A stretch of 64,000 nt of DNA, from assembly GCF_001640025.1 (NCBI RefSeq), contig NC_031672.1:1488001-1552000 (forward strand), written 5' to 3'. The notes under the pieces are model-generated. The model worked only from the letters and a program-made list of their open reading frames with translations, was not told where the DNA came from and made no database searches. Positions 1,529-57,633 of the stretch are shown here, piece after piece. The stretch's first letter is position 1, and every line of letters starts with the position of its first letter. The DNA comes from Sugiyamaella lignohabitans. Taxonomy: Eukaryota > Ascomycota > Dipodascomycetes > Dipodascales > Trichomonascaceae. The position numbers were made by a program, and so were the translations under genes.

Positions 1529-1669
1529 TGCCTCCGGCGGCTGGGGCTCCGCCCCAGACCCTGGTTGCTCCTCTCGCTGCGCTCGAGTCGTTTTGCCACG
1601 GTCCCCCGGCCGTCTCCTGCGAAGCAGGAGCAACCAGGGTCTGGGGCGGAGCCCCAGCCGCCGGAGGCA
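1529..1669. repeat. GC double-hairpin element, two-arm copy
   Basis: Left arm begins TGCCTCCGGCGG and right arm ends CCGCCGGAGGCA, so the ends pair. The arms carry GGGGC-TCC-GCCCC and its complement. The left tail has the GCA variant of the GCGNAGC mini-hairpin. The outer flanks GGGGGGTC and GACCCC extend the inverted repeat. It lies 111 bp upstream of the CYM1 start. Confidence 0.95.
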
Positions 1670-2888
1670 GACCCCTTCCCCGGCCCGTCAGCCCCGTTCG
1701 CGGAGCCAGGGGTGGGGTTTTCCGGGGGTGGGAGAAAGGTGTGGAGGGTGTGGGAGTGGCGAGTATTCGGGGTGGAATGGGGAGGGGAGGGGAGGGGTGG
1801 GGGGTTGGTGAGGGGTGGAGCCGTCAACGCAGGTACCAGATCTGCGCCGTTGCAACGGTTGTGCATACGCACCGGCTAGCGAGATTCGCGGCAATGAGCG
1901 TGAAAAGCTTATTTAAGACACGGTTCTGACAGCTGTTCTGTCGCAGGGGGTGGTTTTCCGGGCTCGAACGGCGATCGAGATTGACGTTTTAGCACTGGTT
2001 TTCAGGAATTGAGTTATTTCAAGTCACAAACCAGACCAGAGAGCCTGGCTGAGGAGAACGGAGGTTGGCTGCTGACTATGGTTCAGTCATGGCAAAAAGG
2101 CCAGATTTAAAAAGATTGTTGCACTAGAATTTTTGACCAGAGCTCCAGTCAATTGCCAGGAGAGAGTTGAGGGCCGATAGACGACGGTATCGGCAGCAAG
2201 CGTCGATTGATCAGCGATCGGGGTTTTTCCGATTGAAAAATAGCGACCGGCCGACTGCCTCTCGCGTCTTTGTTTGAGCGAGGATATCAGATCGAGAGTC
2301 GAATGAGGCTCACTAAATCGAGCCCTGAACCCAAAAATGATTTCTATAGAGCACGGAGTTCATGTGAAGTAAGTCAATTGAAAGAATTTGATAAAAAAAT
2401 CCAGTTTTAAGAGCGAATGAAAAGAAGGAACCGGAGATTGAGCCTCCGATAAGCTTGACACCAATTAATTAATTCACCAGTGTGGCTCGGGAGGTCTGTC
2501 TTCTGTCAGAAAAGCAAGATTAGAGTTTACGTAAGCGCAAAAGTCCCAACCTCCATATAACCGTTATCGGCGGCAAGATAGACCCCAATCAGTACGGCTC
2601 CACCCCCCAACAGGACTAATGCTCGCAAGCTGTCGGCGATTGCCCCCTCACTTTCTCCCTTTCAGCGCCGTTCAGCCTTGCTTATCGAGTATGTCAGCTG
2701 CACCTGCAACCGGAGCTTTTCAAAACAAAAAAAAATACCGCTATTTGGCGTATCCATCTCATCGCAGACAAACTCACGAACCAGCTGATCCTCGACTATC
2801 GGCTTGAATTTCCAGTTGCTAGCAGGTGCAAGTGCCTTTTCCACCTGATTTTCTTGCCATTTGCCTGTCAATTGGACTTCCCAGACGC

Positions 2889-2897
2889 TATAAAATA
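2889..2897 (+). promoter_or_regulatory. Possible TATA box for MSN5
   Basis: TATAAAATA on the + strand, 285 bp upstream of the MSN5 ATG. It is consistent with a yeast promoter, but nothing else ties it to the gene. Confidence 0.3.
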
Positions 2898-3181
2898 GCA
2901 GCATCCAGCGCATTCGCGGGTTTCTGGATCGCGACTGAATGGGTCTGATTCAGTCTTCCTGGCTCTCTGAATACAATTTCAACAATTTCACCAACCTTAA
3001 ACAGGCTGTGGTTCATTGTTCACAAAACTGCAACACGCGTCCAAAACCACAACACCAGTCAACGGGCAATTGTCTACAACTGAGACCAAACGATAAAATA
3101 TCTGTTTAACGACGTCTGACAACAGAGAACACCCTTGTGTGCACCCGGTTCTCAGCCTCGATTCACAAACACATCTCTCCA

Positions 3182-6100
3182 ATGGAGGGTGACGGGGTGG
3201 TTCAAATCACCGCCGCTCTCGAGGCCATTCATCAGTCGTCGTCCACGCCCCAACAGCGTCGCGACGCCCAGAACGTGAGTTGTCCCCCACTGCCTCCGGC
3301 GGCTGGGGCTCCGCCCCAGACCCTGGTTGCTCCTGCTTCGCAGGAGTTTTTTGGCTGGGTCCGGACACGAAAACTACTCGAGCGAAGCGAGAGTAGCCAC
3401 GGGGTCTGGGGCAGCGCCCCAGCCGCCGGAGGCACACCCCCCTCTCCCAGAAAACTAACCGGAATCGCAGTTCCTGGAACAGGTCAAACACAAGGAAGAC
3501 GCGCCGTTTTGGGGATGGCAGCTGTCGACGCCGAAGAATAATAATGATAGTATTGTGAGGCATTTCGGGCTCACGTTGCTACAGCATGCCATTCAGTACC
3601 GGTTTATCGAGTATGACGAGTCTCGAAGGTTGGCGGTACGGAATTGGATTATTGATCTGGCGACGTCGGTTCAGAGCGAGGACCCGCATTTTCTCAAGGA
3701 GAAAATCGCTTTTTTGTGGGTGGCTGTCGCGAAAAGAGTGTGGGGACTGGATTATTCCAGCACTCAGAATGGCAAGTCTGATGGCGAAACTGTCGGTAAT
3801 AATAACGGGGTCCTGAGTGGTCAGACGACCGGGTCTGACGGTTTTGGTACTGATATCGATGTTAAATGGCTTGTTAATGCAAAAGATGATGGCGAGCTGG
3901 AAAATGTGTCGATAGGTTGGCAGGATATGGACTCGGTGCTGGTACAGATGTGGGACCAGACTCCCGCCACGAGAGTTCTGTCGCTTAGCATTTGGAGAAA
4001 TCTGTTTGAAGATATTTATATTCTCGAGGACCCAGTGGCTGCTAAACGTGCCAGTGTTCTGAGTGTTCAATGCATCGAGGTAATCACCTCAGAAGATGAT
4101 TTGAAAGATACGTACAAGTCACGAGTCAATGCATTAGTCAAGCTACGAGGCAGTTCCGAAGGCTGGCTGAGTAAATGGTCGATGCTGCTCAGTGAATGTT
4201 TAAAAATAATGAGCTCTGGTGAACAGCCAGGGTCCACGAATTTCGAAGAGTCGCAGTTGTTTGCTATTAAAGTGCTTGAAACGCTCAAAACTTGTCTTTA
4301 CTGGATGTTGCCGAAAACTATTAGAACCAGTAATTTATTAGAGTTTATCAGTGTTTCGCTGACTTTAGACGACATCCGTGTTAAGACTCTGGCCGCTGAT
4401 TGTCTGCATGTGCTGTTCACTAGAGTGTTTACTGATGAAGAAGATTTCCAAGCCATTGTCGGTGCAGTATTTTTGCCGGCCGGTATTGCTACTTTACAAA
4501 GGGTTTATGATTCTGTTAAGCTCGATATTGAGACGTTTGACGAGAAGTCCTATATTTTCAGGAAAAAGCTCGTGGAAATGATTGTTGGACTGGGTGAATA
4601 TTTGAATGTTTCCAAGACCCAGCAACCACAATTGCAAATGGCTCATGTGGATCTGGACGGGTACCTACGGCTTGTGTTAGCGACTACCAACCATCCTAGT
4701 TTATTAATATCCGGGTTGTCTCTTCAGTTCTGGTGCTCTGTATTGAGAATTGAGAAACTTGCATCCAAACCGGAGGTTAATAAGTTGTTACTGGATCTGT
4801 TACAGCTTGCTGCTGATAGGTGTTTGAAGTATGAAGATGTCAGTGAAGATGATATTTCCCGACAGTTTTTAGAATTGGATTTCGACTCTCCGCCCGAAAC
4901 TCATATGTTTTTAGGAAATTACAGAAGATTCATCGAGGACATTCTAAGGTTGGTTGTGTGTCGTATTCCTGAGTCCGCCATGGCGTATCTTCAGCAGAGA
5001 ATGAGTGCATTTTTCACGTCCGAGGTCGGATGGGTTTCACTCAATTCTGCTAAACTCGAGTATAACGGCAACCCTGCATACTATCTAGCATTTTCACAAT
5101 TCCTTCTTGTAGAATCTGCATTGCGTGGTATTGGACGATGGAAAATATGGTATCAGTTTCCTGATAGAGACATTGTAGCAGCTGGGTTGTCGGAAACGAT
5201 CAAAAACTGGGGTCGCGAATTGACTGCTATGACTATAAGAGATCCTCTGCTGTTACGAAAGTTGGTGCAGTCATTAGTCCAGTTCGCTCCGTTGCTGAAA
5301 GACGATCTTCCAATAATGCTTTTGGTGCTGGAAAAGGTGTTATCTGCCTGTACATGTGACTATCCTGAGAATGCCACGGACGAGGACCGTGAGTTGATTC
5401 GCGATCTTCGTACGTCGTGTGCTACTGAACTTAATAGACTGGCATACATGATCCCGGGGGCATTAATGAAAATATATGACGAACTAGAAAGGGTCATTCG
5501 TGACATTATTACATCCAACAAACTCAGTGACCACGAAACCGTATCATTCAAATCATTCCTTCTCGTCGTGTCGCAGCGAGCCAATGTTCCTAATAAAGAA
5601 GAGCGATTCTCAGCAATAGTAGATCCGATTCTACAATCTTGGAGCGATGAAGCCACTATTAAAGGACTGATGGATCTTCAATGGTTTATGGAACGAGTGG
5701 GAATCGTGAAAATCGCCGAATACTTTCGCTCACGCGGTGTCAATGCCAATACCGACTTACTATCAACAGAGATGGACGAAGCTGGTAAGAAACTCAAAGC
5801 AGAATTAAAAGACAAATGGTCAGCACTGTTCCCGATTCGGGCGACCCGGATCTTCATCCAATACACTATAGAAAAGCTCGATCACCAGTCGCCTGAATAC
5901 CAATATTTATTAAAACTATGGAAACCACGCATCCAACCGATTCTGCCACACATTCTACAACTAATTGCGCAAATCGAGGCGTACCACAACCCCAACAACT
6001 GGGTCGACCTACCCGCTGAAGTCCAAGCGTTTGTAAAGTACAGTTGTACCGAGAGATTCTGGCAAGTGGGAGTGTCAACTCAAACCCGCGATGAGTTTGT

Positions 6101-7288: not shown

Positions 7289-7431
7289 TGCCTCCGGCGG
7301 CTGGGGCTCCGCCCCAGACCCTGGTTGCTCCTCTCGCTTCGCTCGAGTCGTTGCGTCTCCGTCCCCGGCCAAAAACTCCTGCGAAGCAGGAGCAACCAGG
7401 GTCTGGGGCGGAGCCCCAGCCGCCGGAGGCA
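7289..7431. repeat. GC double-hairpin element shared by the convergent MSN5 and NCP1 3' ends
   Basis: It begins 44 bp after the MSN5 stop and ends 45 bp before the NCP1 stop, so it sits midway. Arms are the standard form with GCGAAGC tails. Confidence 0.93.
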
Positions 7432-9705: not shown

Positions 9706-9954
9706 TGCCTCCGGCGGCTGGGGCTCTGCCCCAGACCCCGTGGCTCCTCTCGCTTCGCTCGAGTCGGGCATGGGGGGTGCAAGAGCGCGGAGAATAGGCT
9801 GCTTCGCGGGTGTCCCGACATCCAAAACCCGTCATAAAACCTATTCGCCGAAAAAAAACAACCCCACCGCAATCCTGGCCCTGCCAGAACCCTCCAACAG
9901 CTCGCGAAGCGAGCACAACCAGGGTCTGGGGCGGAGCCCCAGCCGCCGGAGGCA
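9706..9954. repeat. GC double-hairpin element with a long central spacer
   Basis: The left arm (9706-9767) and right arm (about 9900-9954) are standard, but the spacer is about 130 bp instead of about 20-40 bp. The right arm has the GCTCGCGAAGCGAGC tail. It lies upstream of NCP1. Confidence 0.88.
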
Positions 9955-10476: not shown

Positions 10477-10617
10477 TGCCTCCGGCGGCTGGGGCTCCGC
10501 CCCAGACCCTGGTTGCTCCTCTCGCTCCGCTCGAGTCGGACCGGCCGGTAGGAGAAAAAAACTCCTGCGAAGCAGGAGCAACCAGGGTCTGGGGCGGAGC
10601 CCCAGCCGCCGGAGGCA
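10477..10617. repeat. GC double-hairpin element, two-arm copy
   Basis: Flanked by GGGGGGGGAC on the left and CACCCC on the right. The left tail carries the GGA variant (CGCTCCGCTC) of the mini-hairpin loop. No gene is adjacent. Confidence 0.93.
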
Positions 10618-11133: not shown

Positions 11134-11194
11134 TGCCTCCGGCGGCTGGGGCTCCGCCCCAGACCCCGCTGCTCCTCTCGCTTCGCTCGAGTCG
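11134..11194 (+). repeat. Single arm of the GC element (left-type)
   Basis: Begins TGCCTCCGGCGG and ends CGCTCGAGTCG with no right arm nearby. Confidence 0.88.
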
Positions 11195-11748
11195 GGCGTT
11201 GGCCGGGCTGTAGAGCGGATAACGAGAGAGATGTGGCTTATTCGGCCGTTCCGTGCTTTGAGTTCCTGAGCTGGGACACTGTTGCGTATCTGCTATAGAC
11301 TTTTAAAACCTGAATCTGCCGTAATTAAACTCCGAATATCCATTAAATTATATATATATTCCCAGTTCCTACCACAGGCTGTATGTAGAGGGAGCATGAG
11401 TGCCTAGACAGTCTTACGACGCTGATGTCACCACACAGCTTGCCAAGCTTCCAAGCCCTCATCTTGGTTTATCTACGAACCTATTGCACAAGTCAACTTC
11501 TCAATTTATCATAAAATACCGATACCATTAAACTGTGATATTTTGTGACTGCTGATGTCTCGGGTACTACGCCCTGACCACCCCCCAAGTACCCCCTCAT
11601 TGACCCCTCATGCCCCTCATGCATGCCACTACCCCTGATTTTGCTGAATATGTCTGACGCCCCAGAGGCGGAATTAAAACATCTCGACCGGTCCCACACT
11701 TCCCTCTATATTCAGTGCCAGCGAGTTAGTAATGGGGGGGGGTGTTTG

Positions 11749-11881
11749 TGCCTTCGGTGGCCGGGCTCTGCCCGGACCTGGTGGTGCTCGCTTCGCGAGC
11801 TGCTGGGACTGTGGACGTAACGACTCGAGCGAAGCGAGAGGAGCTGCGGGGTCTGGGGCAGAGCCCCAGCCGCCGGAGGCA
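11749..11881. repeat. Diverged two-arm GC element
   Basis: The left arm is diverged (TGCCTTCGGTGG), and its hairpin is CCGGGC-TCT-GCCCGG rather than CTGGGGC/GCCCCAG, so both stem sides changed together. The right arm is standard. It is followed by two further right-type arms. Confidence 0.8.
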
Positions 11882-11917
11882 CAAATCACCTTGTACGAGA
11901 GCTGACCGCGGAAGAAA

Positions 11918-11978
11918 CGACTTGAGCGAAGCAAGAGGAGCTACGGGGTCTCGGGCAAAGCCCCAGCCGCCGGAGGCA
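11918..11978 (-). repeat. Single right-type arm of the GC element
   Basis: Slightly diverged (CTTGAGCGAAGCAAG, CGGGCAAAGCCCC). Part of a tandem series of right-type arms from 11821 to 12074. Confidence 0.8.
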
Positions 11979-12013
11979 GCAACCCTTCGGGTGGAAAGTG
12001 CCCGGAGCCGTAA

Positions 12014-12074
12014 CGACTCGAGCGGAGCGAGAGGAGCCACAGGGTCTGAGGCGGAGCCCCAGTCACCGGAGGCA
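12014..12074 (-). repeat. Single right-type arm of the GC element
   Basis: Third right-type arm in the local series, with the GGA loop variant and an AGTCACCGGAGG end. Confidence 0.8.
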
Positions 12075-12473: not shown

Positions 12474-12534
12474 TGCCTCCGGCGGCTGGGGCTCCGCCCC
12501 AGACCCCGTGGCTCCTCTCGCTTCGCTCGAGTCG
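12474..12534 (+). repeat. Single left-type arm of the GC element
   Basis: Standard left arm TGCCTCCGGCGG to CGCTCGAGTCG. No matching right arm follows within 500 bp. Confidence 0.88.
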
Positions 12535-12717
12535 ATTTCGCTGGGGTGCGATGGTTGCATGGTGCGGGTGGTGAGAGTGTGCATCCACGGGATTATAGGG
12601 TACATTGAGTCCGGTTCGGGTGGTCTTATCGGTCCGACCGCCGTTTATGAAGGGTGGTAAGCAGTGACGGTGGACACATGTTCCGGAGAGCGGTTCAATG
12701 ATAGACCCGGCAGCACG

Positions 12718-12743: not shown

Positions 12744-13088
12744 GACATCGATGCAGTCTGCCCGTCAGAGATATGTTTATTTTTGGTTTGGATTTTCATC
12801 TTACTGAATAAGGATTAATTAAGCTCAAACACAGCCGCTTCTTGTTAGAACCCTGTCCATCCTATTACAGCCCTCTTCAAGTAATAATTTACATCCAATT
12901 TAAAGAGTAAAAAATAGCAGCGACATGGCAAACCCCCACCTCCTTCATATCCCCTGAAAACCCCCAGAATGTCGACCATACCCCTCCCTCTCCTCGCGCC
13001 TCTCCCCTTAGGCCCCTCACCAATCCACTCCCACCCCTCCTGCCCCTCCCATGCCCCACCACCCCACGAACCCCGAACCTCCAAGACC

Positions 13089-13143
13089 GCTCGCGAAGCG
13101 AGCACAACCAGGGTCTGGGGCGGAGCCCCAGCCGCCGGAGGCA
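13089..13143 (-). repeat. Single right-type arm of the GC element
   Basis: Begins GCTCGCGAAGCGAGC and ends CCGCCGGAGGCA. No gene lies nearby. Confidence 0.88.
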
Positions 13144-14672: not shown

Positions 14673-17600
14673 ATGGGTGTGTTCAGCTGGCTGCCGTCGT
14701 TCAAACTGTTCGACAGCATCACCGACACCGCCAGCCCGGAACCGGACGTCGTCGCTCTGCCGAAAAGTAAGTGTCTTCACCGGGGACTGCCTCCGGCGGC
14801 TGGGGCTCCGCCCCAGACCCTGGTTGCTCCTCTCGCTTCGCTCGAGTCGTTTCCGCTCCAGTCCCCGCCAAAAATCTCCTGCGAAGCAGGAGCAACCAGG
14901 GTCTGGGGCGGAGCCCCAGCCGCCGGAGGCAGCAGGGCGTCAGAGTACTAACGTGGGGTGTAGGGTCGACCAGTTCGATAGGGAATGATTCGTTTGTGGC
15001 CACCCCGAGGGTGTCGCCGCGGGCTACGTTGACTGGGTTGTCTGCGAGTTCGACGCCGTTGGTGAAGAGTTCAGGTGTGGATTTGCCGGTGCCACGGCCT
15101 CAGAGTCCCGTTCATAGACAGACTGCTTCGTCGGACCTGCTGGCATCGCAGGAGTCTGGTGATACTCTAGGTCCGCTGCGACAGAGCTCGTCCAGACCCA
15201 AGGTTCGTGTTAGTAGCGAGAATTCGGGATCTGTGACAGCTGGTGCTGGTGCTGGTGCTGGTTCTACGGGCTCGGCTACTTCTCTCGATCCGTTGACGGA
15301 TGTGATATTACAGCGTGCTCAGGCAGTTGGATCTGCTTCGACAGGTCCAATGGTTGGAAGTGGAGTTGGAGGTGCTAATAACGGTGGTTCGGGCTTTATT
15401 GCTGTGCTAGGTTCAACCGCTGGAACTGGAAACGCTAGAGAGAGTGGTACAGGTGCTGCGAATCAGGACAACAGTGCCGTTCCAGACGGGTCCTCTGAGA
15501 ACGAATCTCATATTCCTCATAGTCACAGCATCAATTTCGGTCTCCATGGCCATGTCATTGGTACTGGAAATGGGACTGGAGGAAGTGGTTCTGGAGGTGC
15601 TGGTACAGGTACTAGTGCCGGACAGGGGTTCTCTCGGTCTGTTTCTATGAATACTCTGGCTAGTACTGTTAGCAGTGTCGCAAATAACGGTAATATCGCT
15701 AGTAGTGGCGGCAGTGCGAATGGCGGATTCTTCTCGTTGCTGAGAAAATCGTCGGGAAGACCTACTACAGACGACGAACTGGATTATGGCCAGGCAGGCC
15801 GTGATGAAGCCTGGAAGGCCGATGTGGTCGGGTATATTCCCAACACACCAGTACCTCCAAAATATGTCCATGTAAGAGCACATCGCAAGAAGAATCGAGA
15901 ATTTAATCGAGTTTTTCTGGCTCAGGAGTTACGGCCTCCTTACTGTGATCAAGATCACGACGATGCCAGTGCTAATACTAGCACGAATAACAGTGTCAGT
16001 GGTGATATTGGTAGTGGGGGTACGAATGGAAGTCAAAGTAGTCGTGGTTGTCGAACAGAGAAAATGAGCAACGGTCGTCGTTCAACGTCGAAAAACGCTA
16101 TTTGGTCAGCGAAATTCAGTAATGACGGACGATTTCTGGCTGTGGCTGGTGAAGATAGAGTGGTGAGAGTATGGGAGGTGATTTCTACTCCTCAAGATCG
16201 AGACCATGATCGAGGAGGAAGAGAAAAATCCGGCAGTTTTACTGGCTCGTCTGCAGCTACCTTTGCTACATATCCCGACTCTAGCGACTCGGAAGACCAC
16301 CAGCATACCAATTCCCCATTCAAGTCTAAAGGCGGATTCAAACGCCGTCACAATACAGCTGCATATGCTCCAGTGTTCAAGACCAAACCTGTCCGGGAGT
16401 TTTACGGACACACTGCCGATGTTTTGGATCTCAGTTGGAGCAAAAATAATTTTTTGTTATCTTCATCTATGGATAAGACAGTTCGTCTATGGCATATCGA
16501 CAAACAGGAATGTTTGTGTTCATTCTCGCATTCTGATTTTGTGACATCTATCAAATTCCATCCAAAAGACGATCGTTTTTTCATTTCCGGCTCTCTCGAC
16601 TGTAAAGTCAGACTGTGGTCTATTCCCGACAAAGAAATAGCATATGAACGCGATGCACCGACTTATATTACTGCCACAGCATTTTCTCCCGACGGGAACA
16701 CGGTTATTGTGGGATGTTTTGGAGGACAATGTTTATTCTACGAGACGGAAAAGCTACGTAAGAAGAGAGAAATCCGTGTACGAAGTACCAGAGGACGCAA
16801 CTCTAAAGGATCTAAAATCACCGGTATAGAGGTTTTCCAAGTTGTACCACAAAAGCGATACTCCAGCCGATACGTTCAATTCGACAACGACATTAAACTG
16901 CTGATATCGACCAATGACAGTCGACTTCGACTGTATAATTTACACGATGGGTCGATGGAAATCAAATTCAAGGGCCATGAAAATGAACAGACGCAAATCA
17001 GTGCCACCTTCTCAGATGACGGCAGGCACATAATCACTGGCAGTGAAGACTCTAGGACATATATCTGGTCGATTGACGAGAACGATTTATACGAACGAAC
17101 CGGTAAAAAGAAAGAACGTCAGGAATACGAATATTTCCATTCCAACAAATCCATGGTCACAGTAGCAATCTTTGCCCCGACTCTAACAAGGCAAATCCTC
17201 GCTGCCAGCTGTGATCCTATCTATGACATATGTGACCCTCCACCGGTCCAATTAAAAGCATCCACACCCAGTTACGAAGCTAACGACTCCAACGAAACGA
17301 CAACAAAAGAAGCGCCAACAGCCACTAATGACGACAGTGTGCCACTCAGCGAACATAAATACCCACCCCTGCGAACCAGTCGCAAATCTCTACATCGAGC
17401 AGGAAACATTATGGTCACAGCTGATCGCAATGGTATTATCAAGATTTTCAGACAGGATTGTGCTTATGGACCTCGTCGAGTTCTGTTAGAAGCGACTCAA
17501 GCACAAAAAAAACGGTACAGCGGAATAGCACTCAGTCCATCGCATTCTTGGCGTGAGTCTCTGTCTGCGTACAGATCCAAGACCGCTCGTTCTGCTAACG

Positions 17601-18193: not shown

Positions 18194-18406
18194 TGCCTCC
18201 GGCGGCTGGGGCTCCGCCCCAGACCCCGCTGCTCCTCTCGCTTCGCTCGAGTCGGGCGTCAGGGGATCTGGAAAATTCAGGGGTTCGCGGCTCGGGGAGT
18301 TGTTTTCGCAAATTGTAAACACCCCCTTCGCGAGTCCACTCCCCTCGCCCTCTCCTGCGAAGCAGGAGCCACGGGGTCTGGGGCGGAGCCCCAACCGCCG
18401 GAGGCA
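18194..18406. repeat. GC double-hairpin element downstream of the WD40 gene
   Basis: Starts 48 bp after the WD40-gene stop. Left and right arms are separated by about 90 bp of unrelated sequence. The right arm has one change (CCCCAACCGCCGG). Confidence 0.9.
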
Positions 18407-20061: not shown

Positions 20062-20115
20062 TGCCTCCGGCGGCTGGGGCGCTGCCCCAGACCCCGTTGT
20101 GCTCGCTTCGCGAGC
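20062..20115 (+). repeat. Single left-type GC arm downstream of the MFS gene
   Basis: Begins 21 bp after the stop, with hairpin loop GCT (GGGGC-GCT-GCCCC) and tail GCTCGCTTCGCGAGC. It lies in the sense orientation relative to the gene. Confidence 0.9.
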
Positions 20116-20295
20116 GGCGTGGGGAGCGAGTGGAATTTTTATGGAATATAAAATTAACTTTCGGCGGTTCGAGGGGTGTGTCTTTTTAGGGGAAACTCAG
20201 GGGAGCACGGCTTATCGTGCATCTGGATCCCTGCAGATGGCTAAATTATCATGCGGACCTAAATCAGATTCGATTCTCAACTTCTTCAATGTAAG

Positions 20296-22590
20296 ATGGC
20301 CAAACGACGTCAAACGGTATCGGCTGTCGAGACAAAGAGCAAACGAATAAAGCCAGAGAGCCCGGCACCTGCTGCAACAGTCGTCGACAATGAGCAGGCG
20401 CTCGAGCGGATGCTGAGCCCGTCCTCAGACGGCAACTCGTCCGCCTCAGAAAGCTCGCGAAGCGAGCACAACGGGGTCTGGGGCAGTGCCCCAGCCGCCG
20501 GAGGCAAAGGCGACCCCCCAGAAGACTCCAGCAGTGACGAAGACAGCGACGACGATATTGATTGGGCGGATGTGGACCTGCAACAGGGAGAAGTTCCGGA
20601 GCTGAAGGTGGCTGAGAAGATCGAAATTTCGACCAAGATTGATCCCCAGCCCGAAGAAGATCCAGTTTCAGCAGAGAGAGAAGAAAGGAGGAGAAAAGTC
20701 GAGGCAGCGAATCGGGAAAAGGTTATTCGTTTGACGACTCATGTGCTTCATGTTCAGGCTTTGCTGCATCATGGGTCAGTGAGGAACGAGTGGATAAACG
20801 ATTCTAAATTGCAGAAAACATTAAAAGAGAAACTTCCAAAACCGCTGAGGTCGGCATTTAGAAAGCATGCTAAACACGTTGATAGCGGTAAGAATATTCG
20901 CAAACCGGACGAGGTTATCGATAACTTGGCAGTGCTGGTGACGAAGCTGGCGTTGTATTTCCGCAAACAGTTCGAGATTACGAAACCAGGACTGACTGTG
21001 CACGGATACTATCAGCAGGGAGATAATACTGATGGTAGTACAGGAGCTCTGGATTCAGAAGAATTTATTTTGAAATGTTCAGAACGAGAACAGTTCACTG
21101 ATTTTGAAGATTTTTATAATACAGCTGTGACTTTAAAAGGGTCTAGAGATCTCGGGGCACAGGTGTTTGCATGTATTTTACGCAGTCTGGGTGTCGAAAC
21201 GAGATTGGTATTTTCACCTCCATTGCTGGGGTATTCACTTCATAAACGAGAACAATTTGTTCCTGATAAAGACGGTAGAAAGAGAAAGACGGGTTCTAGT
21301 AGAAAAAGCATGAGTCGAGGTGCGACGCCAGACGATGTTGGAGAACACCAGAGGGTCATAGACAGCAATCTGGCGTATCCCATTTTCTGGTGTGAAATAT
21401 ACGATCCTCGGCTGCAGAGTTATATTGCCATAGATCCAATGATTCTGCCGTTTCCGGATTATGAAGATTTGTTAAACGGCAAATATGCTGCTGAGAAGCC
21501 TGCACAGTTTGAACCACAGGGTCCATATGCTGGAAGTCAGAAGATGTATTATGTTGTTGCGTACGAAGACGATTCAAACTGTCGTGATCTGACTCCTAAA
21601 TATATGAGCAGCAAGACAGTTCCACAAATCATCACTCTTACAGCCACGTCTCTGGTACGACCCATGGCAGCGTCCTCGTTTAAAGACGTCGCATACCTAC
21701 TTTATCTGCGTTCAGTCTGGCTCATGGCTCGAGCTCTGAACAAGAAATCAGATAAACTGCGAGCTGAAGACGCTCAAATGAGAAAATGGATAGCAGCGAA
21801 ATCGAGTACCGAAAACGGCAGTGAGTCAACTGAACCCAGTTATCCCAACGTTCTCTCAGCTTATAAATCACATCCGACGCTAGTGCTCCACAGCAAACTG
21901 TACAAAAGCCAGACATTACGACCTGGAGCAAAACCCGTTCATAAATTCGACATTAAAAGTGCCAAAGGCACACGAACTGAAATTGTATATCATCAAAAAG
22001 ATGTTGTAAACTGCCGACCTCAAGCAGCCTGGTATAAAGAGGGCCGAGTTATCAAGCCAGGAGAAAAGCCTATGATTATAGAAAAAGCCAAGCCGTCTAC
22101 AAGAAACGGCAAGAGAAAACTAGAAACGAGCATCAAATACGGGGATAACCCTGAAGTTGTCGAGCAAGGACTGTATTCATACGAACAAACGATGGAATAC
22201 GTCCCACCAGAAGTGATCGAAGGACAACCCATTCCGCGAAACGAGTTCGGCCGGGTCGAAATCTTTACCCCGAACATGGTCCCCAAAGGAACAGTGCATC
22301 TTCGGTACCAGGGACTCGGACGCATCGCCAAAAAGCTCGGCATTGATTTTGTACCTGCCGTTGTCGGGTTCAAATTCCAGTCCCGGTTTGCCAAACCCGA
22401 CATCGACGGAGGTATCGTCCCCGTCAACTCTGCCGAAATCCTTCTCGACGCCTGGCGTCAGGACCAAGAAACCAAACGCGAAAAAGAAACCGCTGCTCGC
22501 AACGAAGACGCACTCACCCGCTGGAAACTCTACGTCGCACGTCTCCAACTGCTTCGCCGTCTCGAAAACAAGTACGGACGAACCTCTTAA
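20296..22590 (+). CDS. RAD4: DNA-damage recognition protein Rad4/XPC
   Basis: Nucleotide-excision-repair factor that, with Rad23, recognises distorted DNA and starts global-genome repair in the nucleus. It has 764 residues (S. cerevisiae Rad4 is 754). The N-terminus is basic then acidic (DSSSDEDSDDD near residues 77-88). A transglutaminase-like fold follows, seen in REQFTDFEDFYNTAV, SLGVETRLV and FWCEIYDPRLQSYIAIDP. The beta-hairpin domains begin at YKSHPTLVLHSKLYKSQTL and end in the BHD3 region PRNEFGRVEIFTPNM...VPAVVGF. Residues 53-70 are encoded by a single 54-bp GC element arm inserted in frame in the acidic, probably disordered, segment. No splice sites flank that arm. Start ATG 20296. 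Convergent with GPI11. Confidence 0.93.
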   Translation: MAKRRQTVSAVETKSKRIKPESPAPAATVVDNEQALERMLSPSSDGNSSASESSRSEHNGVWGSAPAAGGKGDPPEDSSSDEDSDDDIDWADVDLQQGEVPELKVAEKIEISTKIDPQPEEDPVSAEREERRRKVEAANREKVIRLTTHVLHVQALLHHGSVRNEWINDSKLQKTLKEKLPKPLRSAFRKHAKHVDSGKNIRKPDEVIDNLAVLVTKLALYFRKQFEITKPGLTVHGYYQQGDNTDGSTGALDSEEFILKCSEREQFTDFEDFYNTAVTLKGSRDLGAQVFACILRSLGVETRLVFSPPLLGYSLHKREQFVPDKDGRKRKTGSSRKSMSRGATPDDVGEHQRVIDSNLAYPIFWCEIYDPRLQSYIAIDPMILPFPDYEDLLNGKYAAEKPAQFEPQGPYAGSQKMYYVVAYEDDSNCRDLTPKYMSSKTVPQIITLTATSLVRPMAASSFKDVAYLLYLRSVWLMARALNKKSDKLRAEDAQMRKWIAAKSSTENGSESTEPSYPNVLSAYKSHPTLVLHSKLYKSQTLRPGAKPVHKFDIKSAKGTRTEIVYHQKDVVNCRPQAAWYKEGRVIKPGEKPMIIEKAKPSTRNGKRKLETSIKYGDNPEVVEQGLYSYEQTMEYVPPEVIEGQPIPRNEFGRVEIFTPNMVPKGTVHLRYQGLGRIAKKLGIDFVPAVVGFKFQSRFAKPDIDGGIVPVNSAEILLDAWRQDQETKREKETAARNEDALTRWKLYVARLQLLRRLENKYGRTS
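20453..20506 (-). repeat. Single right-type GC arm inside the RAD4 coding sequence
   Basis: Begins GCTCGCGAAGCGAGC and ends CCGCCGGAGGCA. It is exactly 54 bp (18 codons) and open in the RAD4 frame, where it reads SSRSEHNGVWGSAPAAGG. Confidence 0.93.
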
Positions 22591-22615: not shown

Positions 22616-22752
22616 TGCCTCCGGCGGCTGGGACTCTGCCCCAGACCCCGTAGCTCCTCTCGCTACGCTCGAGTCGTCACGCGACAGTCCCAGCAGCTCC
22701 GCGAAGCGGAGCACAACCAGGGTCTGGGGCGGAGCCCCAGCCGCCGGAGGCA
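22616..22752. repeat. GC double-hairpin element shared by the convergent RAD4 and GPI11 3' ends
   Basis: Begins 25 bp after the RAD4 stop and ends 46 bp before the GPI11 stop. The left tail has the GTA loop variant (CGCTACGCTC) and the right tail has GCTCCGCGAAGCGGAGC. Confidence 0.92.
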
Positions 22753-23928: not shown

Positions 23929-24066
23929 TGCCTCCGGCGGCTGGGGCTCCGCCCCAGACCCCGTGGCTCCTCTCGCTTCGCTCGAGTCGGTTCCTCCACG
24001 GTCCCAGCCGCTCCGCGAAGCGGAGCACAACTAGGGTCTGGGGCGGAGCCCCAGCCGCCGGAGGCA
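23929..24066. repeat. GC double-hairpin element between GPI11 and CFT1 promoters
   Basis: Flanked by GGGGGTC and GACC, followed directly by a run of 16 C. It lies between the divergent starts of GPI11 and CFT1. Confidence 0.93.
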
Positions 24067-24068
24067 GA

Positions 24069-33550: not shown

Positions 33551-33740
33551 GCGTGTGGTTGGGGGTGGTTTCTGTGGTCTTGGTGGGTTCGGTTTTGTGA
33601 TCTCCCGGTGTAAATAAAACGTTATTTGAAGTGATAGTTCTGGATCCAGACTCACGTGTTGCGAGCGGGCGGACCCGGGTCAGGACCCTGCGTCTCCAAC
33701 TGCAGCGCGCCAAAACTCTGGGCTGGGTACGATCCCAGGA

Positions 33741-33789
33741 ACGAGCGAAGCGAGCTACGGGTCCGGGCGGAGCCCGGCCGCCGGTGGCA
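33741..33789 (-). repeat. Diverged right-type GC arm
   Basis: Reads ACGAGCGAAGCGAGC, then CCGGGC-GGA-GCCCGG, then CCGCCGGTGGCA. Both sides of the stem differ from the consensus in a matched way. GTGCCACC follows and pairs with its end. Confidence 0.78.
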
Positions 33790-33796
33790 CCGTGCC

Positions 33797-34569: not shown

Positions 34570-35742
34570 ATGTCGTCTTCGTCAGCGGCAGTAGCAGACG
34601 CCATTGAGCACGAGGACCAGAAACCGGTCAAACACCTCAGCCATTTCGGCGGGTTCATAGCCGGCGGTATCGCGGCCTGTGGAGCTGTCACCGTCACAAA
34701 CCCCATTGAACTGATCAAAACTCGGTAGGTCCACTGTGCACTGTGCCTCCGGCGGCTGGGGCTCTGCCCCAGACCCCGTGGCTCCTCTCGCTCCGCTCGA
34801 GTCGTTTCTTTTGTCGAGCACACTCCCGACGTTCGACTCGAGCGAAGCGAGAGGAGCAACCAGGGTCTGGGGCAGAGCCCCAGCCGCCGGAGGCATGTCC
34901 CCCCTCCCCAGAACTAACAGAATAGAATGCAACTCCAGGGAGAACTGGCTGCTAAAGGTCAGGGAAAGAGAATTTATACCGGTCTGTTTCAGGGTCTGGC
35001 CACTATTTATAAGCACGAGGGTATCAGGGGATGTCAGAAGGGTCTGTTTCCCGCTTATATCTATCAGATCGGACTTAATGGCTGTAGATTGGGTTTCTAT
35101 GAACCGGTCAGAAGAGGACTCAATTCGCTGTTTGGTTACGAGTACACGGACCAGCAGTTCGGACTTAATATCGCTGCTGGTGCTAGTAGTGGCATTATGG
35201 GCGCTATTGCCGGATCTCCTTTTTACCTGATAAAAATCCGGATGCAGTCGTACTCGCCTGTATTCAAAATCGGTGCTCAAACTCATTATACAAGCACTCT
35301 GCAGGGTCTTTCTACCATCTGGAAAACTGAAGGTGTCAGAGGTTTGTACAGAGGTGTGGATGCTGCAATTCTAAGAACCGGTGCTGGTTCTAGTGTACAA
35401 CTGCCCATTTACAACTGGAGTAAGACTGTCATTGAAAAATATAATCTCGCGGCTGATGGGCCTGTTCGCCATCTGCTGGCAAGTGCTGTCAGTGGACTCG
35501 GCGTGTGTATTGTCATGAACCCCTGGGATGTGCTCATGACCCGAATGTACAACCAGAAGGGCAATCTGTATAAAAATCCCTTTGACTGCGCATACAAAAC
35601 CGTCACCATCGAGGGACCCCTGGCTCTTTATAAGGGGTTCATTCCCCATCTCATGAGAATCGGGCCCCATACCATCCTCACTCTGACCTTTATGGAACAG
35701 ACCATGTACTGGATGAAAAAGATCGAAGGTGTACCTTTATAG
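34570..35742 (+). CDS. OAC1: Mitochondrial oxaloacetate/sulfate carrier Oac1 (two exons)
   Basis: Inner-membrane carrier that moves oxaloacetate, sulfate and isopropylmalate. Exon 1 is 34570-34724, the intron is 34725-34925 (donor GTAGGT, branch AACTAAC at 34912-34918, acceptor ATAG), and exon 2 is 34926-35742; 323 residues. The three carrier signatures are PIELIKTR (split by the intron within the arginine codon, CG|A), PFYLIKIR and PWDVLMTR. Oac1-typical blocks include AAYIYQIGLNG-like SAYIYQIGLNG (here PAYIYQIGLNGCRLGFYEP) and DAAILRTGAGSSVQLPIYN. The conserved Leu of the first signature is a CTG codon, which supports a standard code. Most of the intron is a GC hairpin element, and another single arm begins 34 bp after the stop. 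Confidence 0.94.
34725..34925 (+). other. OAC1 intron built around a GC hairpin element
   Basis: The intron is 201 nt, of which 152 nt (34744-34895) are a two-arm element. Donor GTAGGT; branch AACTAAC; acceptor ATAG. The remainder without the element is 49 nt. Confidence 0.9.
34744..34895. repeat. GC double-hairpin element, two-arm copy, inside the OAC1 intron
   Basis: Hairpin loops are TCT on the left and AGA on the right. The left tail is the GGA variant and the right tail is GCGAAGC. Confidence 0.93.
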
Positions 35743-35776: not shown

Positions 35777-35838
35777 TGCCTCCGGCGGCTGGGGCTCCGC
35801 CCCAGACCCTGGTGGCTGCTCTCGCTTCGCTCGAGTCG
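35777..35838 (+). repeat. Single left-type GC arm downstream of OAC1
   Basis: Begins 34 bp after the OAC1 stop, in the sense orientation. Confidence 0.9.
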
Positions 35839-37024
35839 GGCGTGGGGTGTCAGTTCCAGCGAGGTTCGTGGTTCTGTGATGCTAGCGAATTTCACTACGG
35901 GTTTGAACCAACTGAATTACGGAAATTACCTCAGCTCAAATACAACAGGATCTGGCAATCTCGAAGTGAACCTGTATCGAACGATTTTTCACCTGTTCTA
36001 AGGAGGGACTGCCTCCGGCGGCTGGGGCTCCGCCCCAGACCCTGGTTGCTCCTCTCGCTTCGCTCGAGTCGGGCGTGGAGTGCGAAGTCCAACGGGATTC
36101 GTGATTCTGAAATTATATTCTGAGAAGCTGGTGGAAATATCAATGGTGAAGCTACCAAAGCACAATCATCGCTCTAATAAACTTGACTCAAGAGCAAAAA
36201 TGGTTCTGAAAGCCTGTCAGTGAAAACAACACCCCACGACTCAAGCTGTCTGAAGCACGATGTTTCCTCTAACGAACCAAACTTGTAAGCAACAGGTCTG
36301 AAAAAACAGCCAGTGGAGACAAAAGGACTTTCCGGAACAAACTCCAAAGAGGTGGAGGACAGCCAGGTCAAGCATAGCACTTCCATGAGGAGCTACAAAT
36401 ACAAACAGGGTTTTTGGAAAGGATTCATCCCTGGAAGTTATGCGGTTGAGTCTTTGCCTAGTGCCCGTGTTCTGGAAATCAGCTTCAATCGACTAAAATT
36501 GTGATCTTGATACCGAGCAAAGTTGGAGTTTTTTAAGACTTTGTTCAAGTCCATGTGGTAGCTGTGTTTCCAAATGATCTCCTAGGAAATCACGGAGCAA
36601 CTCCGATTCGAGAACAATAGGGTCTGAAAACTAGCCAGTAGAATCAAGTGAAGTCTGTGGAGCATTCAGGATGACTGAACAAAAAACATTTCCAAGTGGA
36701 GCTAACTCCATCAATAAAATCGCAGTAAGGGAGCTTTCCCTGACAATTATATCTGGTCTAATCTCGGTTTGGTGCCCAATTTTGAGAAACAAGTCAGACG
36801 AAGATAAAGAACAAACTATACACTCAGTGTGGTTCGAAATTTAGAAAAATGAATAAAGTTCTCGGTAAAACTTTGATGAAGTCCAGTCTCAGGAGACTTC
36901 GTGAACCTTAGCAAACGGTGATCGAAGGTAGCTAGCTGTATTTCCAGATTATATCACCTGGAAACTGTAAAAGCAAAGTCGACTGGGTTTGAAAACCAGA
37001 AACGAGAGGAGGGGCATCCAAGCC
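35839..37024. other. Gene-free region between OAC1 and MUB1 3' ends
   Basis: About 1.2 kb with no supportable gene. It holds a second left-type GC arm (36010-36071); the rest is AT-moderate unique sequence with short open frames only. Confidence 0.55.
36010..36071 (+). repeat. Single left-type GC arm
   Basis: Standard arm in the same orientation as the copy at 35777. Both are followed by GGGCGTGG, so the two copies may be a local duplication. Confidence 0.9.
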
Positions 37025-37086
37025 CGACTCGAGCGAAGCGAGAGGAGCAACCAGGGTCTGGGGCGGAGCCCCAGCCGCCGGAGGCA
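37025..37086 (-). repeat. Single right-type GC arm
   Basis: Standard right arm, first of two in tandem before the MUB1 stop. Confidence 0.9.
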
Positions 37087-37106
37087 TGTTAAGGGAGGAG
37101 AAGCAT

Positions 37107-37167
37107 CGACTCGAGCGAAGCGAGAGGAGCCACGGGGTCTGGGGCAGAGCCCCAGCTGCCGGAGGCA
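37107..37167 (-). repeat. Single right-type GC arm downstream of MUB1
   Basis: Lies 78 bp beyond the MUB1 stop (minus strand), in the sense orientation for MUB1. It has one end change (CAGCTGCCGGAGG). Confidence 0.9.
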
Positions 37168-40377: not shown

Positions 40378-40864
40378 TTAAGCTTGGATATTAAAGACGA
40401 TGCAAAAAAAGGGAAAATAAGGAGTCAAAAAGTGGCAATATCTGACATCAATTGAATCGGGTGAATGAACAGAATAGAGTCGACTGACAAATGAGACAGA
40501 CCTAAAAGGAACAGAAGTTGCTTTTCAAAGCCAGGATAGAGTATAGTGAAGAAAGCAGTAAGCAAAGGACGTAAAGCACGTAAATGAGGTGATAGAACCA
40601 GATCTTGCCACGCACTATTCACTTAAAAAAAACCTTCAAAAAACCTCGCACAAACTCGTACAAACTCTCACAAAAGCTGAAGTTCAGGTATGCGTGACGA
40701 GTACTTCACGAGAAACTCAAGTCACAAATGCTACCAAATGCTCTCAAAAAAGCCACGCTCACAGTCGATCTAAAACTCACGTTAGTCCCATGAACCCAAT
40801 CAAACCGCCATCAAACCCCCAAAAACGACTCCACCCTAACGTATAGCACACATCACCCAACGCA

Positions 40865-40916
40865 ACGAGCGAAGCGAGCCACGGGGTCTGGGGCAGAGCC
40901 CCAGCCGCCGGAGGCA
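40865..40916 (-). repeat. Single right-type GC arm upstream of MUB1
   Basis: Short arm beginning CGAGCGAAGCGAGCC and ending CCGCCGGAGGCA. Confidence 0.88.
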
Positions 40917-41863: not shown

Positions 41864-42030
41864 TGCCTCCGGCGGCTGGGGCTCCGCCCCAGACCCCGTG
41901 GCTCCTCTCGCTTCGCTCGAGTCGTGCGTCGGGAGATGGGGGTGGCGTGCGGGGGGGGGGGGGGGGGTCGCCCAACCTTCGAGCGAAGCGAGCTACGGGG
42001 TCTGGGGCAGCGCCCCAGCCGCCGGAGGCA
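41864..42030. repeat. GC double-hairpin element with a poly-G run in its spacer
   Basis: Left arm 41864-41925, right arm about 41979-42030. The spacer contains 17 consecutive G (41951-41967). Confidence 0.92.
41951..41967. repeat. Homopolymer run of 17 G
   Basis: Lies between the two arms of the GC element at 41864-42030. Confidence 0.92.
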
Positions 42031-42491: not shown

Positions 42492-42629
42492 TGCCTCCGG
42501 CGGCTGGGGCTCCGCCCCAGACCCTGGTAGCTCCTGCTTCGCAGGAGTGGTCGCGATCCGTGAGGAAACGACTCGAGCGAAGCGAGAGGAGCCGGGGGGT
42601 CTGGGGCGCAGCCCCAGCTGCCGGAGGCA
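42492..42629. repeat. GC double-hairpin element, two-arm copy
   Basis: Left flank GCGGGGGAC, right flank CACAACCC. The left tail is of the CTCCTGCTTCGCAGGAG type, and the right hairpin has loop GCA. Confidence 0.93.
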
Positions 42630-44713: not shown

Positions 44714-44854
44714 TGCCTCCGGCGGCTGGGGCTCCGCCCCAGACCCTGGTTGCTCCTCTCGCTGCGCTCGAGTCGTTCCGTCCCCGTTCCCCGGTCAACT
44801 CCTGCGAAGCAGGAGCAACCAGGGTCTGGGGCGGAGCCCCAGCCGCCGGAGGCA
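44714..44854. repeat. GC double-hairpin element between the TauD-type gene and the HD pseudogene
   Basis: Begins 36 bp after the dioxygenase stop and ends 31 bp before the pseudogene stop. The left tail has the GCA loop variant. Confidence 0.93.
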
Positions 44855-54182: not shown

Positions 54183-54322
54183 TGCCTCCGGCGGCTGGGG
54201 CGCTGCCCCAGACCCCGTAGCTCCTGCTTCGCAGGAGACAACTTGGGGGACTCCTCGTAACGACTCGAGCGCAGCGAGAGGAGCAACCAGGGTCTGGGGC
54301 GGAGCCCCAGCCGCCGGAGGCA
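54183..54322. repeat. GC double-hairpin element downstream of the surface-protein gene
   Basis: Begins 117 bp after the stop at 54065. Flanks GGGTG and CACACCC extend the inverted repeat. The left hairpin has loop GCT and the right tail has the GCA variant. Confidence 0.92.
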
Positions 54323-55226: not shown

Positions 55227-55364
55227 TGCCTCCGGCGGCTGGGGCGCTGCCCCAGACCCCGTAGCTCCTGCTTCGCAGGAGTTTGCTGGGACCTTGGACG
55301 GACCGACTCGAGCGGAGCGAGAGGAGCCACGGGGTCTGGGGCAGAGCCCCAGCCGCCGGAGGCA
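55227..55364. repeat. GC double-hairpin element, two-arm copy
   Basis: Hairpin loops GCT and AGA. The left tail is CTCCTGCTTCGCAGGAG and the right tail has the GGA variant. It lies upstream of the GH17 gene. Confidence 0.92.
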
Positions 55365-55528: not shown

Positions 55529-55960
55529 CAGGTGCCGGAGATGGACTGGTAAATCTCTTCTTGTTTTTGTCCGGCTGAGCCTTATTTGTTCTGTGTTTTT
55601 TGCTGACTGTGGATTTTTTGTATTTTCACATTCTCATTTTTTCTTGTTAGTTCGATTTGTTTGTTTATTAATAATAACACAACAAATTTGTCTAGCTTGT
55701 TTCTCTCCAATCTTTATAACACTATTTTTTGGATTTAACACCGTTTCCGGTTCCTCTCTCGCTCGCTGTTCTGTTTATCCAGTCCGGAGAATTTCGTCTC
55801 GATCTCTAGTATTTACTACGGCACTCTCGATCACAACATCATCGACTATCTACAACAACATCTAACTCACTTTTTTGTTTGTGGTATTACTCGATAAAAA
55901 TATTTTATTTCGACTTTTACAAAAGAAAACAACTCAAATTCTTTAAAAAAAAACTGAAAA

Positions 55961-57406
55961 ATGAAGTTCACTACTGCTCAAATTGTCGGCTTGGCCGCTG
56001 CTCTCAGCTCTACTGCTGCTGCTGACCTTGTCAAGGGTTTCAACTACGGTTCCACTGACTCTTCTAACCAACCCATTACTCAATCTCAATATGAGGACTT
56101 GTTCAAGACCGCCGAGGGTCTTAAGGGTACTGCTGGTTTCACCAGTGCTCGTCTTTATACCATGATTCAAGCTGGTACTCCCAACTCTCCTATTGAGGCT
56201 ATTCCTGCTGCTATTGCTCAAAACACCAAGTTGTTGCTTGGTTTGTGGGCTTCTGCTGGCCAGGACCAATTCAACCAAGAGTTGACTGCCTTGAAGTCGG
56301 CTATTGACACTTATGGTAGTCAATTGGGTGACCTTCTTCTTGGTATCTCTGTTGGTTCTGAGGATTTGTACCGTGACTCTATCATGGGAATCCAAGCCAA
56401 TGCTGGTATCGGTGCTGGTCCTGACGTGATCTTGTCTTATATTAAGCAAGTTAAGCAACTGATTTCTGGTACTGCTTTGGCTAATACTCCTATTACCCAT
56501 GTTGATACTTGGACTGCTTGGGTCAACGGATCTAATGCCGATGTTGTTTCCAGCATCGACTTTGTCAGTGTGGATTTGTACCCTTACTTCCAAAACACCA
56601 TGGCCAACTCGATTGATGTTGCCAAGAATTTGTTCTGGGATGCTATTGACCAAACTCAAGCCAATGCTCAAGGTAAAGATATCTGGGTCACTGAGACCGG
56701 TTGGCCCGTCAGCGGTCCTAATGAGAACCAAGCTGTTGCTTCTCTTGCTAATGCCAAGACCTACTGGGACGAGGTTGGTTGTGACATTTTCACCAAGATG
56801 AACACTTTCTGGTACACTTTGCAAGATGCCAGTCCTGTTACCCCCAGCCCCAGTTTCGGTGTGGTCGGTTCTCAATTGAGCACTACTCCTTTGTTCGACT
56901 TGACCTGTCCTGCCGGTTCTTCTTCGTCTTCTTCTTCTTCTTCTTCTTCTGCCGCTGCCACTTCTTCTTCTTCGAGCGCCGATCCTTCTTCTAGTGCTGC
57001 TGCCACTTCTACCGAGGCCACTACCTCTTCTAGCGACCCTGCTTCCAGCTCTGCTGCCGCCTCTACCCCCTCGAGCTCTGCTGCTGCTGCTGCTACCGCC
57101 TCTTCTGCTGCTGTTTCTGCTGACGATGTGGCCAAGTCCAGTGCCACTTCTGGCCCTGCCTCGACTTCCGAGGCTGCTCCTGCCACCAGCTCTGCTGCTG
57201 CCGCTGTCTCCAGTGCCGCTCCTGTCTCCAGTGAGGCTCCTGCTGCTCCCTCTACCACCACTGAGGCTGCTCCTGCCACCTCTGCTGCCGAGTCGGTTGC
57301 CCCCGTCGAGTCCACCACCGCCCCCGTCGCCACCGGCGCTGCTGCCTCTGTCGTCGCCTCGACCCTCTCTGTCCTCGGACTCGCTGCATTTGTTTCTTTG
57401 TTGTAA
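55961..57406 (+). CDS. GPI-anchored GH17 beta-1,3-glucanase/glucanosyltransferase-like cell-wall protein
   Basis: A secreted wall enzyme of 481 residues. The signal peptide is about residues 1-21 ([20 protein letters not shown]). The GH17 catalytic domain spans about 22-310, with the acid/base Glu134 ([11 protein letters not shown]) and nucleophile Glu245 ([11 protein letters not shown]). A Ser/Ala/Thr-rich stalk follows, and a hydrophobic tail ([15 protein letters not shown]) looks like a GPI signal. The architecture matches fungal EglC-type glucan endo-1,3-beta-glucosidases, which act on wall glucan. Codon use is strongly biased to C- or T-ending triplets (GCT, GCC, ACC), suggesting high expression. 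Start ATG 55961 follows an A-rich leader. No intron. A GC element begins 70 bp after the stop. Confidence 0.92.
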
Positions 57407-57476
57407 TCGTTAGATATACCCCCCTGTTGACCTAGAATATTTAAAATAGAAAGTAATTTATCACTCTTACGGGCTC

Positions 57477-57633
57477 TGCCTCCGGCGGCTGGGGCTGCGC
57501 CCCAGACCCCGCGGCTCCTCTCGCTGCGCTCGAGTCGTTTCGTCGGCGTCCCCAGCAGTTCCTTACGGTCCTAGCAATCTCTTGCGAAGCAAGAGCCACG
57601 GGGTCTGGGGCGGAGCCCCAGCCGCCGGAGGCA
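57477..57633. repeat. GC double-hairpin element downstream of the GH17 gene
   Basis: The last copy in the window. Hairpin loop TGC on the left and GGA on the right. The left tail is the GCA variant and the right tail is TCTTGCGAAGCAAGA, a matched change from CTCCTGC/GCAGGAG. Confidence 0.92.

Follow-up and report, generated by a model that had tools for sequence, protein, structure and literature searches.

A genome-wide family of GC-rich palindromic repeats in the nuclear genome of the yeast Sugiyamaella lignohabitans

Double-hairpin elements of fungal mitochondria carry two hairpins in a row. The GC clusters of mitochondrial genomes, such as GC42, are short GC-rich palindromes whose structure is kept while their loops vary, and their units are reported to exchange, merge and shuffle with no encoded enzyme (Wu and Hao 2015, PMC4478555). 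In bacteria, the repetitive extragenic palindromic (REP), BIME and REPIN repeats are non-autonomous, high-copy palindromes, mostly intergenic and arranged as inverted pairs, and PMC3733652 defines a REP by a GTAG (or CGTC) tag at the foot of its hairpin. Here, we characterize a family of GC-rich hairpin repeats in a 64,000-nt stretch of the yeast Sugiyamaella lignohabitans, referred to as the window (positions 1,488,001-1,552,000 of a 5.93 Mb contig, from an assembly of 15.93 Mb in four contigs). The window was combined with 200 kb from 20 further stretches of the same genome into a 264 kb sample. From this examination, the hairpin repeat is a real, genome-wide family of nuclear palindromes, and it is probably mobile.

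The likeness in form to mitochondrial GC clusters, proposed in an earlier reading of the window (the original prediction), was borne out by the GC-rich palindrome, the conserved stem and the variable loop. Unlike the GC clusters, the yeast arms are nuclear, number in the thousands, form a two-arm unit of 140 bp and have another sequence. They share two hairpins in a row per arm with the double-hairpin elements of fungal mitochondria, but are nuclear, start from a fixed head sequence and are paired as inverted repeats. With the REP, BIME and REPIN repeats they have in common that they are abundant, non-autonomous palindromes, found in inverted pairs and mostly between genes. Their consensus contains neither the GTAG nor the CGTC tag given for REPs in PMC3733652; they possess a GNA-loop tail hairpin, and no Y1 transposase (PF01797) was matched in the yeast genome, compared to matches in 5 of 14 control genomes. 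Inverted ends, small size, high copy number and the lack of an open reading frame (ORF) are shared with miniature inverted-repeat transposable elements (MITEs), but a fixed-length target-site duplication is lacking, and the absence of such duplications also distinguishes the copies from short interspersed elements (SINEs). In form the family matches GC clusters and REP pairs, yet it lacks features, among those examined, that define REPs, MITEs and SINEs. A literature search that did not cover the species' genome paper, which may describe the repeat, found no described nuclear family of this kind; the supposition that no nuclear family like it has been described held to this extent, but its core motif is also a multi-copy repeat in some bacteria, as presented below.

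We searched for the arm core as T-GCCTCCGGCGGC-TGGGGC-nnn-GCCCCA-GACCC with up to 6 substitutions. The sample contained 173 such cores, 130 of them exact (174 cores after neighbouring stretches were joined). In the window, CTGGGGC-NNN-GCCCCAG occurred exactly 46 times, compared to 0 in 100 dinucleotide shuffles. The 50 window cores and two further arms with a compensated CCGGGC/GCCCGG stem make 52 arms in 34 copies. The original prediction had counted 18 two-arm and 16 single-arm copies in 57 kb, and exactly these numbers were recovered; both arms belong to the common stem class in 17 of the two-arm copies, and the remaining one is a mixed pair at 11749-11881. Across the genome, 6160 exact main hairpins were found against 0 for the reversed-pattern control, a density of about 0.4 per kb, which confirms the predicted dense nuclear family and rules out a local duplication alone. 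The second stem class, CCGGGC-nnn-GCCCGG behind the same head, has 154 exact genome copies. The copies sit on megabase contigs beside nuclear genes and thus not in mitochondrial DNA, which is apparently absent from the assembly because COX1 was not found in it. An Rfam scan of the window gave nothing at curated score; sub-threshold matches of one copy to miRNA-precursor and VA families were ascribed to palindromy. Arm translations compared to a protein collection gave 82 candidates, none at E 0.01.

A typical copy measures about 140 bp and consists of two inverted arms around a poorly conserved centre, with inverted ends of about 43 bp. The outer boundary is sharp, with T in 95% of 173 arms. 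We delimited 122 copies in the sample, comprising 52 two-arm copies (53 if one overlapping pair is counted) and 70 single arms of about 55-62 nt including the tail hairpin; some of the latter may have a partner that has decayed or belongs to the second stem class. The two-arm copies are mostly 136-146 bp in size, and 41 of the 52 join one "CTC" tail (CTCTCGCTTCGCTCGAG) to one "TGC" tail (CTCCTGCTTCGCAGGAG). The inner variants of both arms agree in 30/52 compared to 19.9 expected (6 of 5000 shuffles reach 30). These three features indicate that the arms travel together. Loop agreement between the arms was 35/52, with 31.4 expected. The arm cores are 96-98% alike among 35 aligned CTC/TGC copies; the centre between the tails ranges from 20 to 128 nt, shows 67% identity among 7 copies with a 22-nt centre, and has a TTYCGTCGACGGTCCCRGCCAT-like form recognisable in several copies. 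We consider the dispersing unit to be mostly the two-arm form, and single arms to arise by insertion, truncation or tandem duplication. Among the arms listed, rearranged forms include truncated arms, tandem arms (window 11.8-12.1 kb and C1:210 kb) and, at C1:221.4 kb, two arms joined through the hairpin loop. By analogy with mitochondrial GC clusters, the tandem, fused and shortened forms suggest exchange at the palindromes.

The tail hairpin contains a motif of known physical properties. According to PMC4686876, GNA loops closed by G-C pairs form extraordinarily stable, nuclease-resistant DNA mini-hairpins that protect a 3' end from exonuclease, and GCGAAGC has a melting temperature of 78 C. 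The tail core of the yeast arms is the same motif. Each arm had been predicted to hold two hairpins with the tail centred on GCGNAGC, and GC-GNA-GC was indeed found in 158/165 sample arms, at most 45 nt from the stem. Counted on the strand ending ...GGAGGCA-3' at the outer edge, these cores comprise 121 GAA, 19 GCA, 17 GGA and 1 GTA loops, noting that the script prefers a GNA match where one exists and that 5 of the 158 are without pairing outside the core. The tail stems outside the core vary by type while Watson-Crick pairing is kept (CTCCT/AGGAG, GCTC/GAGC, CTCCC/GGGAG), with tandem G.A pairs as an alternative in the CTC-type stems. The main-hairpin loop is GNA in 126 of the 164 arms that have a 3-nt loop. 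A third mini-hairpin, GCC-GGA-GGC, is possible in the head on one strand, although the computed fold pairs the head differently.

The flanks were characterized by G-runs of a given polarity and by the lack of duplications. In 26% of 170 arms, positions -6 to -3 read GGGG, compared to a background of 0.37%, and a second peak follows about 7 nt farther out; CCCC was not comparably enriched and did not exceed 4% at any position of the 60 nt upstream of the arms. GGG occurs at both outer ends in 20, at one end in 19 and at neither in 13 of the 52 two-arm copies. All six runs of at least eight G in the sample adjoin arms, five within 15 nt outside the outer end and one within 60 nt inside, and no such run of opposite polarity stands at an outer end in the 264 kb. 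Long G/C homopolymers by or inside copies were found at window positions 33798-33828 (31 nt), 24069-24084 (16 nt) and 41951-41967 (17 nt). No target-site duplication of at least 6 nt was found at either end in the 52 two-arm copies; at offsets 0-7 these copies showed no duplications of 6-8 nt, no clear excess for 2-5 nt, and no notable excess of the 2-nt AG-type duplication that GC42 possesses according to PMC4478555. Duplications of at least 6 nt were also not in excess over chance in the 53 usable single arms of 70. Two other sources of these patterns were rejected. Quasi-palindrome copying as the origin of the G-runs should give AGGGTC flank ends in the GACCCTGG class; A makes up 11% and G 51% of column -6. 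For a fold-back duplication of the whole single arm the left and right flanks were not clearly more complementary than shuffled ones.

The distribution of copies relative to genes was then examined. The original prediction had placed the family in nuclear genes; it is nuclear and some copies lie in introns, but most lie outside coding sequence, as ORFs of at least 200 aa hold 13/174 arms while covering 51% of the sample. With a looser cut-off of 150 aa, 25/117 placed copies were inside an ORF. Copies are depleted in long ORFs. Splice signals (GTRAGT and CTAAC..AG) flank 10/122 copies compared to 115/20,000 random positions, and in reversed order 1/122. For the exportin-5/MSN5 intron (3275-3470), the spliced product aligns gap-free across the junction to MSN5 (E 4.5e-29), and for the mitochondrial carrier intron (34725-34925) the Mito_carr match crosses the spliced junction (E 1e-19); in an introner-type test of these two introns, the splice signals stand outside the copy. 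A WD40 gene has a probable intron around a copy, with GTAAGT at 14767 and CTAAC at 14948, assigned from splice signals and frame only. A further intron at 7289-7431 was dropped, since its splice-like signals, which are on the minus strand, come after the stop of the reductase frame. The Rad4/XPC ORF (20296-22587) contains one single arm in frame. Copy density was 1.06 per kb in both convergent and tandem gaps and 0.55 in divergent gaps; in tandem gaps, 28 copies were closer to the stop and 20 closer to the start. Arm density ranged from 0 to 19 per 10 kb, and contigs C2, C3 and C4 have no arm in their initial 10 kb. It was also noted that C1:200-260 kb holds 9-19 arms per 10 kb compared to 0-2 in the following 30 kb, with low ORF cover at 220-240 kb. 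The ends of C2 (1-250), C3 (30-280) and C4 (30-260), sample stretches L011, L016 and L019, share AT-rich hairpins with TTC/GAA loops (TAGGCTTCGCCTA, TTTTGCTTCGCAAAA); the loop preference may hold genome-wide.

We assessed the genome for enzymes that could mobilise the arms. Two DDE_1 (pogo-type) matches in long open frames and 13 reverse-transcriptase matches were found, the latter including near-identical copies of a long interspersed element (LINE). The LINE copies are 96-99.8% identical (C1:3056 kb, C3:657 kb, C3:704 kb, C1:3599 kb, C2:643 kb, C4:1331 kb), from which this LINE was probably active recently; the LINE stretches examined contained no arm. The Helitron model PF14214 had no match in the yeast genome, but also none in any control, and the hAT search was likewise negative along with its controls; DDE_1 and hAT were the DDE families covered. 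No transposase domain was detected in the 15 window proteins scanned. None of the searched enzyme families could be linked to the arms.

The same core was encountered in bacteria. The exact 32-nt yeast pattern was present in four GTDB stretches, one from Acetobacteraceae and three from Desulfovibrionaceae, the family that includes Solidesulfovibrio. A looser form (head, GGGG, GACCC) gave 203, 10, 330 and 91 matches in the four bacterial genomes, the 330 belonging to Acetobacteraceae, and 0 in the reversed control. In the Acetobacteraceae genome the TGGGGC-stem form matched 272 times, and it was not matched in any of 384 further genomes drawn from the same class. The shared core is about 30 nt long: the 12-nt head and GACCC of the bacterial GCCTCCGGCGGC-stem-loop-GACCC repeat are identical to those of the yeast arms, the repeat is likewise multi-copy and, in Acetobacteraceae, arranged in inverted pairs (3 of 5 distinct places examined, 107-122 bp), and the Acetobacteraceae form also has the TGGGGC/GCCCCA stem. 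The bacterial repeats differ in that the copies inspected have no GCGNAGC tail hairpin, that the outer flanks of three Acetobacteraceae pairs inspected are mostly A/T-rich rather than G/C-runs, and that the Desulfovibrionaceae stems are of many lengths. A similar pattern occurs in 17 IMG/VR contigs (18 stretches), several with inverted pairs. In the 203- and 330-match genomes, it was noted that the GCCTCCGGCGGC-hairpin-GACCC repeats form many inverted pairs about 90-240 nt apart with covarying stems; a literature search found no name for them. Three of the four bacterial genomes have Y1 loci, and the 1.9-3.3 kb examined there contained no exact CCTCCGGCGG; the Acetobacteraceae genome had no Y1 match. 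Plasmids gave no match to a yeast copy or to the Acetobacteraceae core, and three matches to the Desulfovibrionaceae core, one covering it. Judged on sequence identity, the agreement of head, stem and GACCC between yeast and bacteria would be hard to credit to chance. It is a doubtful but conceivable reading that the yeast arms and bacterial repeats are one palindromic lineage that crossed between bacteria and the eukaryotic nucleus, and that its spread in both follows a common route via hairpin-capped single-stranded DNA, either enzyme-free or with host enzymes.

As a tentative explanation for the yeast family, we propose a non-autonomous, selfish palindromic DNA element that perhaps spreads via hairpin-capped single-stranded DNA. 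This route is suggested by strand-specific GNA motifs and sharp 3' ends, together with G-runs of one polarity and the lack of duplications. The element would pass through single-stranded DNA in which the 3' arm of each strand folds into GNA-loop hairpins and ends, at the sharp outer boundary, with GCC-GGA-GGC-A, and these mini-hairpins would shield the 3' end from exonuclease so that the strand survives. Host repair acting on a break or a stalled fork would then capture the surviving strand, or a duplex with C-lengthened 3' ends; G/C-runs would remain outside the arms and no duplication would form. Fold-back exchange at the hairpin loop would give the fused, tandem and single-arm forms.

Several observations weigh against this proposal. 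Neither a mobilising enzyme nor a single-stranded intermediate was shown. No empty sites were found, as with arms masked the flanks of 4/122 copies matched elsewhere in the sample and never on both sides, so that insertion itself is not directly seen. Compared to shuffles, 5-mers in direct orientation near the two ends are somewhat more frequent, at 14 against 9.3 in the two-arm copies (5% of shuffles reach 14) and 27 against 19.8 in the usable single arms (1.3% reach 27), and the arm at 9706 is flanked on both sides by the 9-nt direct repeat TGGGGGGTG. Single arms bear G-runs on the inner side also, which C-tailing of 3' ends does not explain, and the G-runs could have arisen by slippage or reflect a preference for certain targets. 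In 31/164 arms, AGA (19) or AGC (12) forms the main loop. Folds computed for four strands of CTC arms beat shuffles just modestly (z -1.3 to -2.3), pair the head with the GACCC side so that the head mini-hairpin is not formed, and close the CTC tail by a stem of 4 bp around a 7-nt loop; these arms were predicted as one extended hairpin plus this tail stem and not as three mini-hairpins, and the modelled folds do not lend the single-stranded route strong support.

Other explanations account for part of the same evidence. The inverted ends, the sharp outer ends, the asymmetric centre, the size and the two DDE_1 matches would suit an ordinary MITE whose terminal inverted repeats are cut and pasted by a host-encoded DDE transposase. 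DDE_1/Tc1-type elements duplicate TA, however, and neither a 6-8 nt duplication nor a clear excess of 2-5 nt was seen; near-constant arms beside a decayed centre would also be unusual, and we regard this origin as unlikely. It is similarly improbable that the arms multiply without any mobility machinery, through slippage during replication, template switching and gene conversion where palindromes are GC-rich: the sharp outer boundary and the one tail of each type in most two-arm copies, which needs whole-unit transmission, argue against it, while the tandem arrays, the loop-to-loop fusion, the truncated arms, the G-run expansion beside arms and a centre decayed as in a hairpin loop are what it would produce.

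A SINE-like origin, by which a small structured RNA would be retroposed by the LINE of this genome, draws on the near-identical copies of that LINE. Reverse transcriptases add untemplated C to cDNA ends, which would place G-runs at the RNA 5' end. An RNA route for mitochondrial GC42 is discussed by Wu and Hao (PMC4478555). Given the lack of duplications of at least 6 nt beyond chance in both copy types, of an evident A-tail in the flanks inspected and of arms in the LINE stretches, together with the runs at both ends in 20 of the 52 two-arm copies and GNA loops being a DNA stability motif, this origin is distinctly unlikely. A host function under selection at thousands of places, such as an insulator, terminator or protein-binding site, appears very unlikely to explain the family. 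Arms far better conserved than the centre and the terminator-like A/T runs that adjoin some bacterial relatives speak for it; the equal density of convergent and tandem gaps with just divergent gaps lower, the placement of tandem-gap copies (28 toward the stop, 20 toward the start), the uneven arm density with empty chromosome ends, and the copies in introns and in one open reading frame speak against it.

The copies in the window are presented in the table; the inner ends of all single arms are approximate. It was also noted that 49894-54065 of the window contains overlapping low-complexity ORFs with repeats of about 12 nt and strong skew, of which 49894-53343 is without a Pfam match.

Table. 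Two-arm and single-arm copies of the palindrome family in the window
Feature	Positions	Strand	Evidence
Two-arm copy	1529..1669	.	
Two-arm copy in 196-nt intron 3275-3470 of exportin-5/MSN5 gene	3291..3434	.	protein alignment
Two-arm copy between convergent exportin-5 (stop 7244) and reductase (stop 7477) frames	7289..7431	.	
Two-arm copy, long centre, left arm flanked on both sides by TGGGGGGTG	9706..9954	.	
Two-arm copy	10477..10617	.	
Single arm (core and tail hairpin)	11134..11195	+	
Two-arm copy, mixed stem classes: CCGGGC-type left, CTGGGGC-type right	11749..11881	.	
Single arm, tandem array	11917..11978	-	
Single arm, tandem array, decayed	12013..12074	-	
Single arm	12474..12535	+	
Single arm	13087..13143	-	
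Two-arm copy, probable intron of WD40 gene	14788..14931	.	splice signals and frame only
Two-arm copy, long centre	18194..18406	.	
Single arm	20062..20118	+	
Single arm, in frame in Rad4/XPC ORF 20296-22587	20450..20506	-	
Two-arm copy	22616..22752	.	
Two-arm copy, then C16 run	23929..24066	.	
Two-arm copy	29110..29247	.	
Single arm	31561..31622	+	
Single arm	31933..31994	-	
Single arm	33497..33553	+	
Single arm, second stem class, G31 run beyond outer end	33741..33791	-	
Two-arm copy in mitochondrial carrier intron 34725-34925	34744..34895	.	Mito_carr match across junction
Single arm, tandem duplicate 1	35777..35838	+	
Single arm, tandem duplicate 2	36010..36071	+	
Single arm, tandem	37025..37086	-	
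Single arm, tandem	37106..37167	-	
Single arm	40864..40916	-	
Two-arm copy, G17 run in centre	41864..42030	.	
Two-arm copy	42492..42629	.	
Two-arm copy	44714..44854	.	
Two-arm copy	54183..54322	.	
Two-arm copy	55227..55364	.	
Two-arm copy	57477..57633	.	

Palindromes without an enzyme of their own were already known from organelles and bacteria, and the repeats described here are a nuclear family. A family of this density with a defined DNA mini-hairpin code would make the mobility of such palindromes testable in a yeast that can be cultured. Should the stability of the hairpins themselves drive the spread, this would represent a simple selection rule for selfish DNA, and if the bacterial core reflects common descent, a mobile element of unusually small size would have crossed domains.

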